Of a stretch of DNA of 64,000 nucleotides, positions 4,990 to 9,796 are shown piece by piece. The position numbers and the translations under genes are program-made. Within the stretch, counting starts at the first letter, position 1; every line of letters starts with the position of its first letter. The notes beneath the pieces are model-generated. The model had not been told where the DNA came from. It searched no databases and saw only the letters and a program-made list of their open reading frames with translations. The stretch is from Micromonospora eburnea (GTDB taxonomy: Bacteria; Actinomycetota; Actinomycetes; Mycobacteriales; Micromonosporaceae): NCBI RefSeq assembly GCF_900090225.1, contig NZ_FMHY01000002.1, forward strand, positions 4,402,001-4,466,000, written 5' to 3'.

Positions 4990-6369
4990 TCAGACGGCCG
5001 CGTGCATCGCTTGCCAGGCGTTGTATCCACCGAGGAGGTCGGAGACGTCTGGGTGGCCGGTGTTGCGCAGGAGGCTGGCGGCGACGGAGGAGCGGTAGCC
5101 GCCGGCGCAGTGCACGACGATGGGTCGGTCGGTTGGTACCTCGTCGATCCGGCGGGTCAGTTCGGCGAGGGGGATGTGTAGTGACCCGTTGATGGCGCCG
5201 TGTTCGCGTTCGCTGTTGTTGCGGACGTCGAGCACTACCGGTGGTTCGGCGGTGTCGAGGGCGGTACGCAGGTCGTGGGGGGTGAGTCGGCTGGCGCGGG
5301 TCAGATCGGCGGCCATTTCCAGGAAGGCGGTCTCGGGTTCGGGTAGGTAGCCGGCCACCTGGTCGAAGCCGATGCGGGCGAGGCGTACGACGATTTCTTC
5401 CTCCCGGTCCTGGGGGGCGATCACGAGCACGGTGCGGTCCGGTGTGATCACGCTGCCGGCGGTTTCGGCGAACCGGCCGTCGGCGGGGATGTTGATCGCA
5501 CCCCGCAGGTGGCCGGTGGCGAACTCCTGTGGGTCGCGGGCGTCGACGACCACGGCGCCCGCGGTTCGGGTGGCGGTGAAGTCGGTGGTGGTGAGTGGGT
5601 GTGCGGCGCGGTGGTGGTCGAACAGTTCGCGGGCCTTGCGGTTGAGCACGGCGTCGAAGGCGAAGTAGCCGGGCGCGGCGGGTTGCCCGCCGGTGACCAG
5701 GGAGATGAACTGTTCCTCGTTCATCGGGGCGCAGGCGTAGTTGGTGCGGCGCTGCTCGCCGATGGTGGACTGCCGCTCGGTGGACAGGTTCTTCCCGCAG
5801 GCCGAGCCCGCGCCGTGGGCGGGGAAGACCCGGACCTCGTCGGGCAGGCCCATCAGTTTGTGTTGCACGCTGTGGTAGAGCATCCGGCCCAACTCGTCGG
5901 CGGTGACGCCGAGCGAGGCAAGCAGGTCGGGGCGGCCGACGTCGCCGATGAACAGGGCGTCTCCGGTCATCACCCCGTACGGCACCGGGTCGTCGGCGTG
6001 CTCGTGTACGAGGATGCTGATCGATTCCGGGGTGTGGCCGGGGGTTTCCATGATCTGCAGGGTCACGTCGCCGAGGCTGATCCGTTCCCCGTCGTGCAGT
6101 TTGCGGATCGGGTACTCGGTCTCGGCGCGTTGTCCGTAGCCGATCCAGGCGCCGGTGGCCGCGGCGACCTCGAGGTGGCCGGCGAGGAAGTCGGCGTGGA
6201 AGTGGGTGTTGATCACGCCCTCGATGGTCAGGCCACGGGTGTGGGCGTCGGTGAGGTACTCGTCGATGTCGCGGCGTGGGTCGACCAGCACCGCCCGTCC
6301 GGTGCTCTCGTCGGCGATCAGGTACGAGGCCTGGGACAGGCAGTCCAGGTAGTACTGGGTGAACAACAT
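4990..6369 (-). CDS. MBL-fold persulfide-dioxygenase-like hydrolase with two rhodanese domains
   Basis: The 459-residue protein has a metallo-beta-lactamase domain (about 1-240) with the metal motif THFHAD (55-60), the ETPGHTPES loop and D137; this is the glyoxalase-II/ETHE1-type persulfide dioxygenase branch. Rhodanese domain 1 (about 260-345) has no catalytic Cys. Domain 2 (about 365-459) has the active loop H420-C421-AGGYRS. The family oxidises or transfers sulfane sulfur from glutathione- or low-molecular-weight-thiol persulfides. Start ATG 6369 is preceded by AAGGAG; earlier in-frame codons give non-homologous sequence. The CsoR/CstR-like palindrome 50 bp upstream suggests induction by reactive sulfur. 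Confidence 0.92.
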   Translation of the reverse strand: MLFTQYYLDCLSQASYLIADESTGRAVLVDPRRDIDEYLTDAHTRGLTIEGVINTHFHADFLAGHLEVAAATGAWIGYGQRAETEYPIRKLHDGERISLGDVTLQIMETPGHTPESISILVHEHADDPVPYGVMTGDALFIGDVGRPDLLASLGVTADELGRMLYHSVQHKLMGLPDEVRVFPAHGAGSACGKNLSTERQSTIGEQRRTNYACAPMNEEQFISLVTGGQPAAPGYFAFDAVLNRKARELFDHHRAAHPLTTTDFTATRTAGAVVVDARDPQEFATGHLRGAINIPADGRFAETAGSVITPDRTVLVIAPQDREEEIVVRLARIGFDQVAGYLPEPETAFLEMAADLTRASRLTPHDLRTALDTAEPPVVLDVRNNSEREHGAINGSLHIPLAELTRRIDEVPTDRPIVVHCAGGYRSSVAASLLRNTGHPDVSDLLGGYNAWQAMHAAV

Positions 6370-6419: not shown

Positions 6420-6435
6420 ATACCCCTGGGGGTAT
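6420..6435. promoter_or_regulatory. CsoR/CstR-like operator before the MBL-rhodanese gene
   Basis: The 16-mer ATACCCCTGGGGGTAT is a near-perfect palindrome with G-tracts flanked by TAT/ATA, the pattern bound by CsoR/CstR-family repressors. It lies 51 bp upstream of the start at 6369. Two further copies occur at 7189 and 7288. Confidence 0.75.
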
Positions 6436-6448
6436 ATTCCGGGCCGAA

Positions 6449-6468
6449 GGTCCCGTCCCTCCGGGACC
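6449..6468 (-). terminator. Terminator of the rhodanese gene pair
   Basis: The stem GGTCCCG/CGGGACC with a 6-nt loop lies 18 nt past the stop at 6486 and just before the operator of the next unit, so it separates the two transcription units. Confidence 0.5.
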
Positions 6469-6485
6469 CCCGACCCGGGGCGGAC

Positions 6486-6857
6486 TCAAACCAACCGGCC
6501 GGGCCGGCCACCCTTGGCCTGCAGCGCGTAGCCGGCGTCCACCCAGGCCCGCATGCCGCCGGTCAGGTTGTGGACCTGACGGTGATCGCGGGCGAGCCTC
6601 GCGGCGGCCCGCCGCGAGCGCGCCCCGGACCGGCACACGGTCACGATCGGCCGGTCCGCCGGCAGCTCACCGATCCGATCCGCCAACTGGGCGAGCGGGA
6701 TGTGCCGCGCCTGCGGCGCATGGCCGGCCCGCCATTCGGCCGGTTCCCGCACGTCCAGCAGCATTCCCCCGGCACCCACCAGGGCGGCCGCCCGCTCGGG
6801 CCCCACCGACGTGTAGCGGCCGCCGAGGAGCCGCTTCACCGCCTCGCCGAGCCTCAT
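6486..6857 (-). CDS. Single-domain rhodanese sulfurtransferase
   Basis: This 123-residue rhodanese has the MLLDVREPAEWRAGHAPQARHIPL opening and the catalytic loop C75-RSGARS, followed by NLTGGMRAWVDAG at the C-terminal end. The cysteine carries the persulfide during transfer of sulfane sulfur to thiols. It has an N-terminal basic extension of about 20 residues. Its ATG overlaps the stop of the upstream rhodanese by 4 nt (ATGA), so the two are co-translated and share the palindromic operator at 7189. Confidence 0.9.
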   Translation of the reverse strand: MRLGEAVKRLLGGRYTSVGPERAAALVGAGGMLLDVREPAEWRAGHAPQARHIPLAQLADRIGELPADRPIVTVCRSGARSRRAAARLARDHRQVHNLTGGMRAWVDAGYALQAKGGRPGRLV

Positions 6858-7168
6858 GCGCCCACCCCGGTCACGACCGGGCGGCCGCTACGGATCCACC
6901 CGCCGGTACCACCGCTGACCGAACGGGCGTCCACGCCGGCTCGGGCCAGGAACTGCGCGGCGGCCAGGCTCCGGTTGCCGCCGGCACAGATGACGTAGAC
7001 GGGCCGGTTGCGGGGCAGGCCCCCGACCGCCGCGGGCAGCTCGGCCAGCGGCACCGACCGGGCACCGGGCACGTGCCCCTCGGCGTACTCGAACAGTTCC
7101 CGCACGTCCAGCACCACCGCGCCCTGGGCGTGCGCGGCGGCGAAGTCCATCAGGTTGACCTCTTGCAT
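6854..7168 (-). CDS. Single-domain rhodanese sulfurtransferase
   Basis: This is a compact 104-residue rhodanese with VVLDVRELFEYAEGHVPGARSVPL, the active-site loop C61-AGGNRS and the terminal SGGTGGWIRSG. It is the first gene of a two-gene unit; AGGAGGA immediately before ATG 7168 serves as ribosome binding site. A perfect CsoR/CstR-like palindrome lies 21 bp upstream. Its active loop differs from that of the second rhodanese (CAGGNRS against CRSGARS), which may reflect different acceptors. Confidence 0.9.
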   Translation of the reverse strand: MQEVNLMDFAAAHAQGAVVLDVRELFEYAEGHVPGARSVPLAELPAAVGGLPRNRPVYVICAGGNRSLAAAQFLARAGVDARSVSGGTGGWIRSGRPVVTGVGA

Positions 7169-7188
7169 CCTTCCTCCTCAGCTCGCTG

Positions 7189-7204
7189 ATACCCCCGGGG
7201 GTAT
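7189..7204. promoter_or_regulatory. CsoR/CstR-like operator before the rhodanese pair
   Basis: ATACCCCCGGGGGTAT is a perfect 16-bp palindrome 21 bp upstream of the rhodanese start at 7168. It is the best of the three copies in the module and the closest to a start codon. Confidence 0.8.
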
Positions 7205-7287
7205 CCGTATCGACTCTAACCCGTCCGAGGCACTTCGACATTCCGGCCAACGGGCCGGGCGGGCGTGACGGGGAGCACCAGGAATGG

Positions 7288-7303
7288 ATACCCCCTGGGG
7301 TAT
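7288..7303. promoter_or_regulatory. CsoR/CstR-like operator before the thioredoxin gene
   Basis: ATACCCCCTGGGGTAT lies 45 bp upstream of the thioredoxin start at 7348. Together with the site at 7189 it frames the divergent promoter region between the rhodanese pair and thioredoxin. Confidence 0.75.
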
Positions 7304-7347: not shown

Positions 7348-7716
7348 ATGGCGAGCGTGACGCTGACCGCGGCGAACTTCGAGGAGACCGTGAGCCGGGA
7401 CGGAATCGTGCTGGTCGACTTCTGGGCCAGTTGGTGCGGCCCCTGCCGCAGCTTCGCGCCGGTCTTCGAGAAGGCCAGCGGGCAACACCCGGACATCGTG
7501 TTCGGCAAGGTGGACACCGAGGCGGAGCAGAGCCTCGCCGCCGCCGCCCAGATCCGATCCATCCCGACGCTGATGGCGTTCCGGGACGGGGTACTGGTCT
7601 TCGCCCAGCCCGGCGCGCTGCCGGCCGCCGCGCTGGAGCAGGTGATCCAGGCCGTCCGCGACCTCGACATGGACGCGGTGCGCGCGAAGCTGACCGAGAG
7701 CGCGGCCGGCCGCTGA
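7348..7716 (+). CDS. Thioredoxin
   Basis: The 122-residue thioredoxin carries the redox motif W29-C30-G-P-C33 in VLVDFWASWCGPCRSFAPVF, the cis-Pro segment IRSIPTLMAFRDG and the C-terminal helix ALEQVIQAVRDLDM. It has no signal peptide, so it acts in the cytoplasm. GGAGGTGGGAC before ATG 7348 is the ribosome binding site. Its promoter carries a CsoR/CstR-like palindrome, so it is probably dedicated to reducing persulfides formed by the neighbouring sulfurtransferases rather than being the housekeeping thioredoxin (inference). Confidence 0.95.
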   Translation: MASVTLTAANFEETVSRDGIVLVDFWASWCGPCRSFAPVFEKASGQHPDIVFGKVDTEAEQSLAAAAQIRSIPTLMAFRDGVLVFAQPGALPAAALEQVIQAVRDLDMDAVRAKLTESAAGR

Positions 7717-7764: not shown

Positions 7765-8157
7765 TCAGCTCGACACGACGTCCAGCGCCGCCCGCAGCCG
7801 CGCGGCGGCCTCATCGGCGACCGCCCGCAACTCGGGCGCGTCGCTGAGCTGCACCATCACCTGCGGGTCCATGGCCTGCACCACCGTGCTGCCCGACCCT
7901 TCGGCCCGGACGACGACGTTGCACGGCAGGAGCAGTCCGATGGCCGGGTCCGCCTGCACCGCACGGTGCGCCAGGGGCGGGTTGCAGGCCCCGAGGATGA
8001 CGTAGTCGGTCAGGTCGACGCCGAGCTTCTCGCGCAGCGTCGACCGCAGGTCGATCTCCGTCAGGACCCCGAAGCCCTGCTCCTTCAGCGCCGCCCGGAC
8101 GCGCTCCACCGTCTGGGCGAACTCACCGCGCACCCGGACGGTCATCGCGTAGCTCAT
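7765..8157 (-). CDS. DUF302 protein
   Basis: This 130-residue DUF302 protein has the characteristic order MTVRVRGEFAQTVERVRAALKEQGFGVLTEID, LGACNPPLAHRAV and IGLLLPCNVVVR. The two conserved cysteines (in GACNPP and LPCNVV) are present. DUF302 proteins often accompany sulfur-oxidation or thiol-stress genes but have no assigned reaction. It is the outermost minus-strand gene of the sulfur module; the 238-bp gap to the divergent second MBL-rhodanese gene contains no clean copy of the palindrome seen at 6420, 7189 and 7288. Confidence 0.88.
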   Translation of the reverse strand: MSYAMTVRVRGEFAQTVERVRAALKEQGFGVLTEIDLRSTLREKLGVDLTDYVILGACNPPLAHRAVQADPAIGLLLPCNVVVRAEGSGSTVVQAMDPQVMVQLSDAPELRAVADEAAARLRAALDVVSS

Positions 8158-8395
8158 GTTCTCCTCCCTCAGTTGAGATGATGCCGACGGGAGGAGCCGG
8201 CCGGCGATGATTCGCGGATGCCGGACAAATCAGGCCAGGCCACGCTCGGAACAGCCCTTCCTCGCCCTGCCTGACCGAAGAATCCGCCGCCCGCGCCGCC
8301 TGATCCCCGCACCGGCAGGTAAATCCGCCTTACCAGGTCAAAGCCGGCCTCTCGCGTACCCTCGGGCGGATGGGACACGGAAGGGAGAACGCCAC

Positions 8396-9796
8396 ATGAC
8401 ACTGGACGTGTCGGTCATCGCGACGTCCTCGCTCGGCGATCGCAGCTACCTGGCCTCCGACGGGCAGGTGGCGGTCGTGGTCGATCCCCAGCGGGACATC
8501 GACCGGGTCCTGTACCTGGCCGGGACGCGGGGAGTCCGGATCACCCACGTGGTCGAGACGCATATCCACAACGACTACGTCTCCGGCGGGCTCGAACTGG
8601 CCCGGGTGACCGGCGCCCACTATCTGGTGGCCGGTGCCGACCAGGTCGACTTCGACCGGACGCCGGTCTCCGACGGCGATACGGTGCCCGTCTCGGACGG
8701 CCTGCGTCTGCGCGTGGTCGCCACCCCGGGCCACACCTTCCACCACCTGTCGTACGTCCTCGACGAAGCCACCGACGGTGACTGGCGACCGGCGGGTGTC
8801 TTCACCGGCGGGTCGCTGCTGTTCGGCACCACCGGGCGCACCGACCTGCTCGGCCAGGAGCACGCCCACGAGCTGGCCCGCCACCAGCACGCCTCCGCGC
8901 TCCGGCTGGCCGACCTGCTGCCCGACGGGACGCAGGTGTGGCCGACGCACGGCTTCGGCAGCTTCTGCTCGGCCAGCCAGGCCGACGCCTCCGACTCGAC
9001 GTTGGGCCGGGAGAAGCAGGTCAACCCGGTGCTGCGGCTGGCCGCGGAGCAGTTCGTCACCGAGACCCTGGCCGGGCTGGACGCGTACCCGGCGTACTAC
9101 GCCCACATGGGGGTGGCAAACTCCGCCGGTCCCGCCCCGGTCGACCTCACCCCGGTCGCCCGGGCGGACGCGGCGGAGCTGCGCGAGCGGATCGCCGCCG
9201 GCCAGTGGGTGGTGGACCTGCGCCACCGCAGGGCGTACGCGGCCTCGCACCTGGCCGGCACGGTCAGCCTCGGGCTCGACGGCCCGATGTCGACCTGGCT
9301 CGGCTGGCTGATCGACTGGGGCACACCGGTCACCCTGCTCGCGGAGACGCCGGCGCAGGTGGCCGACGCCCAGCGTGAGCTGGTCCGGATCGGCATCGAC
9401 CGGCCGGCCGCGCGGGCCACCGGCGGGGCCGAGCAGTGGGCGGCCGAGCCCGGGCAGCTCCGGCAGCTGCGGATGGCCGACTTCGGCGCCCTCGCCGCCG
9501 CCCGCGCCGGGCAATCCCCGGCCGTCCTGCCCGACCCCGAGGTGGTCCTCGACGTACGGATGACCTACGAATGGCGCGGCGGCCACATCACGGACGCCGT
9601 GCACATCCCGCTGCCCGACCTGCCCGGGCGGCTCGCCGACGTGCCCGCCGGCACCGTCTGGGTGCACTGCGGCTCCGGCTACCGGGCCACCGCCGCCGCG
9701 TCGCTGCTGGCCAATGCCGGTCGCGAGGTCGTCGTCATCGACGACATGTTCGACCGGGCCGAGGCGGCGGGCGTCGCCATGACCGACGACACCTGA
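8396..9796 (+). CDS. Second MBL-fold hydrolase with two rhodanese domains
   Basis: The 466-residue product is a paralogue of the protein encoded at 4990-6369. The metallo-beta-lactamase domain has THIHND (55-60), TPGHTFHH (110-117) and TGGSLLFGTTGRTDLL. The first rhodanese domain (about 255-345) lacks a catalytic Cys; the second (about 380-460) has H424-C425-GSGYR. It differs from the first copy in the metal motif (HIHND against HFHAD) and in several spacing regions, so the two are old duplicates. Start ATG 8396 is preceded by AAGGGAG; a longer in-frame extension upstream has no homology. No clear CsoR/CstR-like palindrome precedes it, so it may be regulated differently. Confidence 0.9.
   Translation: MTLDVSVIATSSLGDRSYLASDGQVAVVVDPQRDIDRVLYLAGTRGVRITHVVETHIHNDYVSGGLELARVTGAHYLVAGADQVDFDRTPVSDGDTVPVSDGLRLRVVATPGHTFHHLSYVLDEATDGDWRPAGVFTGGSLLFGTTGRTDLLGQEHAHELARHQHASALRLADLLPDGTQVWPTHGFGSFCSASQADASDSTLGREKQVNPVLRLAAEQFVTETLAGLDAYPAYYAHMGVANSAGPAPVDLTPVARADAAELRERIAAGQWVVDLRHRRAYAASHLAGTVSLGLDGPMSTWLGWLIDWGTPVTLLAETPAQVADAQRELVRIGIDRPAARATGGAEQWAAEPGQLRQLRMADFGALAAARAGQSPAVLPDPEVVLDVRMTYEWRGGHITDAVHIPLPDLPGRLADVPAGTVWVHCGSGYRATAAASLLANAGREVVVIDDMFDRAEAAGVAMTDDT

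Follow-up and report, generated by a model that had tools for sequence, protein, structure and literature searches.

In Streptomyces coelicolor, the repressor ScCsoR binds a 16-bp ATACC-N6-GGTAT site before a persulfide dioxygenase (PDO) gene and in the intergenic region between the regulator and a rhodanese gene (PMC7533328). It is released by polysulfide, both of its cysteines are needed, and the PDO and TauE genes are co-transcribed (PMC7533328). The CsoR of Streptomyces lividans belongs to the same family and recognizes a G-tract TAC/GTA inverted repeat, but its effector is Cu(I) and its operator is TAC-X9-GTA (PMC3902906). TAC-X9-GTA is described there as common to the CsoR sites of several species, and type 2 sites are given two to four intervening bases (PMC3902906).

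We analysed a 64,000-nucleotide stretch of the Micromonospora eburnea genome (the window), for which a first-pass annotation had reported ATACCCC-NN-GGGGTAT palindromes at 6420, 7189 and 7288, the second of them perfect, preceding an MBL-rhodanese, a rhodanese pair and a thioredoxin. The letters bear this out, with 0 mismatches to ATACCCCNNGGGGTAT at all three places in a scan of the window. The sites, which carry no strand, are ATACCCCTGGGGGTAT at 6420..6435, 50 bp before PDO1; ATACCCCCGGGGGTAT, the perfect palindrome, at 7189..7204, 20 bp before rhodanese B; and ATACCCCCTGGGGTAT at 7288..7303, 44 bp before the thioredoxin gene. The sites at 6420 and 7288 deviate only at the two central bases. 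PDO1 (4990..6369, minus strand, ATG at 6369) has an MBL-fold persulfide dioxygenase-like domain and two rhodanese-like stretches (Pfam Lactamase_B and, twice, Rhodanese); oxidation of persulfides by this protein is predicted from the domain match. Rhodanese A (6486..6857) and rhodanese B (6854..7168), both on the minus strand and overlapping by 4 bp, each match Pfam PF00581. The thioredoxin gene (7348..7716, plus strand) scores above the cut-off of NCBIfam TIGR01068 and matches Pfam PF00085.

In a genome of 73% GC, G-tract repeats of this kind might arise by chance, and 14 of 100 shuffles of the window did reach three matches when up to 3 mismatches were allowed, a test that disregards the exactness of all three sites. 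The whole-genome count argues strongly against this reading. The exact 16-mer occurs six times in the 7,185,375 bases of the two contigs, against 0.013 copies expected from base composition under an independent-bases model. The six fall into two groups. One is made up of the window sites; the other consists of three sites within C2:4,221,838-4,222,447, around a CsoR-family gene, where there is also a copy with one mismatch. The next best matches are three sites elsewhere in the genome with two mismatches each, and the looser TACCCNNNNGGGTA gave nine matches, seven of which are the sites of the window and of this second locus. The scan for the 16-mer, as the first-pass annotation had proposed, thus placed every exact N8 site of the genome at sulfur genes. 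Across 150 genomes of the family the exact 16-mer was found in 49 (100 sites, summed from the table), with the present genome having the highest copy number, six; the reversed control 16-mer was found in none of the 150. The places of the sites are also kept in relatives (see below). A chance origin is contradicted by the genome count, the reversed control and the synteny, and we regard it as hardly credible.

Reading such palindromes as CsoR/CstR operators presupposes a protein of this family in the genome, and a PF02583 profile search returned two CsoR-family (DUF156) genes. One of these, a CstR-type repressor gene (C2:4,221,948-4,222,217, minus strand; L007:7949-8218), is on the same contig at a distance of 186 kb, so that the regulator gene is indeed outside the window, as had been stated. 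Its product scores 74 bits against PF02583 (cut-off 22.8), in keeping with the DUF156/CsoR family. It has two cysteines, Cys35 and Cys64, with Gly60 at the position of the copper sensors' His; the Cys-His-Cys copper ligands are therefore incomplete in the regulator nearest to window-type sites. Comparison with PDB and NCBIfam entries did not separate CstR from other family members. One flank of cstR carries an MBL-rhodanese gene (operator 24 bp upstream of the start), followed by a rhodanese gene with a YgaP-like membrane part and by TauE; the other carries a rhodanese gene (operator 20 bp upstream of the start), followed by an SQR-like gene. The regulator thus has PDO, rhodanese, TauE and SQR genes as neighbours, and G-tract operators precede both its own gene and its presumed targets. 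The sites of this locus and those of the window all fit ATACC-N6-GGTAT before PDO and rhodanese genes.

A shortened copy of PDO1 lies beside the SQR gene at the cstR locus (L007:10044-10457, corresponding to 4995-5330 and 6428-6480 in the window). It comprises the start region of PDO1 and, at 98.8% identity, 336 bp from its end, and the ∼1.1 kb between them is missing. This copy suggests a recent exchange between the two loci.

The second CsoR-family gene (C2:447,129-447,425) encodes a Cys-His-Cys protein matched by PF02583 and lies near a small copZ-like gene and a P-type ATPase (copA-like) gene, the names coming from reading the translations. Its own sites read TACCCC-N3-GGGGTA and have one spacer base more than the window sites, which are of the form TAC-N8-GTA and depart from the copper-type TAC-X9-GTA. 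Other N9 sites precede an MFS transporter gene in the vicinity of cstR (L007:2763, 2796 and 2879) and heavy-metal P-type ATPase and FAD oxidoreductase genes (L009:5853, 6294 and 6440), again named from translations; these genes are candidate members of a copper regulon.

To compare spacers more widely, the CsoR-family genes of the fetched loci were classed by ligand residues and TACC-n-GGTA sites were counted within 600 bp. The main counts cover genes found by protein or profile; four loci, and those fetched with an N8 pattern (23 genes), stand outside them. The latter take in the 30 loci from a class-wide scan with the loose TACCCNNNNGGGTA, which was uninformative, many control counts being as high as the real ones. 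The 72 Cys-x-Cys genes had 129 N8 sites and no N9 site, with at least one N8 site at 65 of the 72; the other spacings were one N7, one N11 and two N12. The 65 Cys-His-Cys genes had 64 N9 sites and one N8 site, with at least one N9 site at 47 of the 65; here the other spacings were one N10, three N4, one N12 and one N5. Under this pattern, 7 of the 72 and 18 of the 65 genes were without a site of the expected spacing. Fisher's test on genes gave 3e-31, a value that ignores relatedness and serves as an index only. Micromonospora accounts for most of the Cys-x-Cys genes, which are therefore not independent; within each of two plasmid-locus pairs (L188 and L209; L191 and L210) an identical protein is encoded.

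The sample also takes in Actinomadura, Arachnia, Corynebacterium, Nonomuraea, Rhodococcus, Mycolicibacterium, Nocardia, Microbacterium, Arthrobacter, Streptomyces, Staphylococcus, Niallia and Lacticaseibacillus. Copper-type N9 sites were found outside the main groups in Rhodococcus jostii, Staphylococcus capitis and Jiella (Alphaproteobacteria). Staphylococcus obeys the spacer rule; Deinococcus does not. In the Deinococcus locus L193, N9 sites (at 1188 and 1384) accompany a regulator that by eye has two Cys and no His and is without the conserved Gln. The script left this gene unclassed. Neither it nor a further Deinococcus gene (L206), which has no sites, enters the counts; the L193 protein may represent another subfamily. 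The L193 regulator gene adjoins an MBL-fold gene. No N8 site was present within 600 bp of the Cys-x-Cys genes of Clavibacter (L200) and of both Leuconostoc loci.

These counts bear on whether the window palindromes could be operators of the copper sensor CsoR, with a copper-induced cluster. The half-sites and G-tracts are the same, both proteins are of one family, and the exception among the copper-type genes, in a relative (L075), does have an N8 site. However, the copper sensor's own sites are one spacer base longer, as in S. lividans (PMC3902906), copper-type genes show 64 N9 sites to a single N8 when the N8-fetched sets are set aside, and the exact N8 sites of this genome are all at sulfur genes. 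Spacer length and ligand residues led us to reject the copper sensor as controller of the window cluster, and we consider such control very unlikely. A variant would have both paralogues binding the window sites, with a response to persulfide and a weaker one to copper. The half-sites are alike and only the spacer differs, which would allow such cross-talk, but spacers are near-completely separated by regulator type and S. aureus CsoR is said to be unresponsive to sulfide stress (PMC5480029); we think dual binding very improbable.

The separation raises the possibility of a one-base spacer code that keeps paralogous circuits apart: with identical half-sites, CstR would read TAC-N8-GTA and CsoR TAC-N9-GTA. 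The code would hold in Actinomycetota and Bacillota and, for copper, also in one alphaproteobacterium. We would give this generalization even odds. When 66 copper-type sequences were compared with 92 of CstR type, the clearest differences included a Tyr-to-Asp change ahead of the first Cys, a His-to-Gly change and a C-terminal Glu-to-Lys change; no difference by itself accounts for N8 versus N9. Our literature search, which took in PMC3902906, PMC7533328, PMC9918477, PMC9405070, PMC5480029, PMC10318464 and PMC4938975, found no statement of a one-base difference between CstR and CsoR sites; the original S. aureus papers may contain one. Assigning an effector to a CsoR-family gene is difficult, and a spacing of 8 or 9 bases between TAC and GTA sorts sulfur from copper in nearly all cases sampled. 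If the code holds, the operators could suffice to type family members whose effector is unknown, and one base pair added or removed would switch a promoter from sulfur induction to copper induction or the reverse. The avoidance of cross-talk by paralogues with the same half-site can thus be tested by a one-base insertion.

The distance between cstR and the window sites counts against control by CstR. With the CstR protein, 56 loci were fetched, mostly from Micromonospora, and synteny was printed for the window, the cstR locus (L007) and 8 of the 56. A single block unites the window genes with cstR in M. globispora (L018), M. orduensis (L041) and M. solifontis (L057), and also in M. fulviviridis (L016), there without rhodanese A and thioredoxin. 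The order is PDO1, rhodanese A, rhodanese B, thioredoxin, DUF302, SQR, cstR, PDO2, rhodanese-TM and TauE, with SQR inside the block in L018 and L041 only among these four, and operators lie at matching places. The window has the same gene order, but cstR and SQR are absent between DUF302 and PDO2; the spot occupied in relatives by SQR and cstR, or by cstR alone, is 8158..8395 (no strand). A once-contiguous regulon therefore appears to be split in the present genome, and with cstR missing from the window block, control must be in trans.

At the 56 loci fetched by protein, one of 11 sulfur-regulon genes follows within 250 bp for 110 of the 112 N8 sites. Loci fetched with the bare pattern give a similar result: 49 of the 60 N8 sites at 29 loci are upstream of one of these genes, and a cstR or PDO homologue is present in 25 of the 29. 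In four of the 29 (1.5 kb around each was covered) none of the 11 genes was found, which counts against the CstR reading.

Two further genes of the window block deserve comment. PDO2 (8396..9796, plus strand) is a second MBL-rhodanese, above the Pfam cut-off for Rhodanese and just below it for Lactamase_B, and shares 83% nucleotide identity with the MBL-rhodanese at the cstR locus. Comparison with that locus revealed a decayed operator, GTACCCTCGGGCGGAT, at 8356..8371 (no strand), with 4 mismatches; it lies 24 bp before the ATG, the exact place of the paralogue's intact site, and 10 of the 63,985 window positions reach this degree of match. The window PDO2 may thus be out of CstR control. This loss is a further point against the CstR reading, since some former members would be uncontrolled. 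The DUF302 gene (7765..8157, minus strand; Pfam PF03625) belongs by synteny to the cstR block of the relatives. DUF302 genes also adjoin CstR-type regulators in Niallia and Nocardia (L190:849-1145; L208:2088-2507), and this recurrence in three genera hints at a part for DUF302 in sulfane-sulfur handling.

Direct observations are the sites, their exclusive genomic distribution, the regulator and the residues at its ligand positions, and the gene order in relatives. With a probability of about 0.9, we read the window palindromes as operators of the CstR-type persulfide-sensing repressor encoded 186 kb away, which would control PDO1, the rhodanese pair and the thioredoxin gene along with the cstR locus. 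The persulfide-detoxification regulon of CsoR/CstR type suggested in the first-pass annotation is supported by the CstR-type protein, by three exact palindromes and one with a single mismatch at its locus, by the surrounding PDO, rhodanese, TauE and SQR genes, by the different spacing of copper CsoR sites and by the contiguous blocks of relatives. Binding, repression and the persulfide effector we infer from the published orthologous circuits. On this analogy, reduced CstR would sit on the palindromes at rest and repress PDO1, the rhodanese pair and thioredoxin, as well as its own locus (PDO, rhodanese-TauE and rhodanese-SQR). A rise in persulfide or polysulfide would make Cys35 and Cys64 react and CstR leave the DNA; the derepressed genes would then provide sulfide oxidation, sulfane-sulfur carriage and oxidation, persulfide reduction and sulfite export. 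Regulator, sites and targets of a predicted persulfide regulon are thereby assigned for a Micromonospora genome.

The closest described circuit, sco0618-0621 of S. coelicolor, likewise combines a two-cysteine CsoR-like repressor, a PDO with a C-terminal rhodanese, TauE and a rhodanese, and no role of a copper-type His is reported for ScCsoR (PMC7533328). Its four genes form one locus (PMC7533328), whereas the present genome has two loci, separated by 186 kb, and thioredoxin, DUF302 and SQR belong to the regulon or adjoin it. Neither thioredoxin nor DUF302 belongs to the four-gene S. coelicolor circuit (PMC7533328). In Lacticaseibacillus, a thioredoxin-family gene (L192:1121-1441) lies directly behind an N8 site (L192:1067) and before the regulator, much as the window thioredoxin gene lies behind its own site. 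In S. aureus, cstR, tauE, cstA, cstB and sqr are described as one cst operon (PMC5480029), and the staphylococcal cstR loci that we fetched have TAC-N8-GTA sites like those here, with less G-rich half-sites. YrkD of Bacillus licheniformis is CstR-like, senses sulfane sulfur and controls sqr and pdo, as proposed here, and works alongside the two-component system NreBC (PMC9918477). TTHA1953 of Thermus thermophilus is also a CsoR-family regulator of sulfur oxidation with targets far from its gene, but its motif, TACNNTACNNNNGTANNGTA, is without G-tracts and it controls Sox genes (PMC10318464); with so different a motif it stands against the spacer rule. The parts that go beyond the original finding are the split regulon and the one-base spacer difference.
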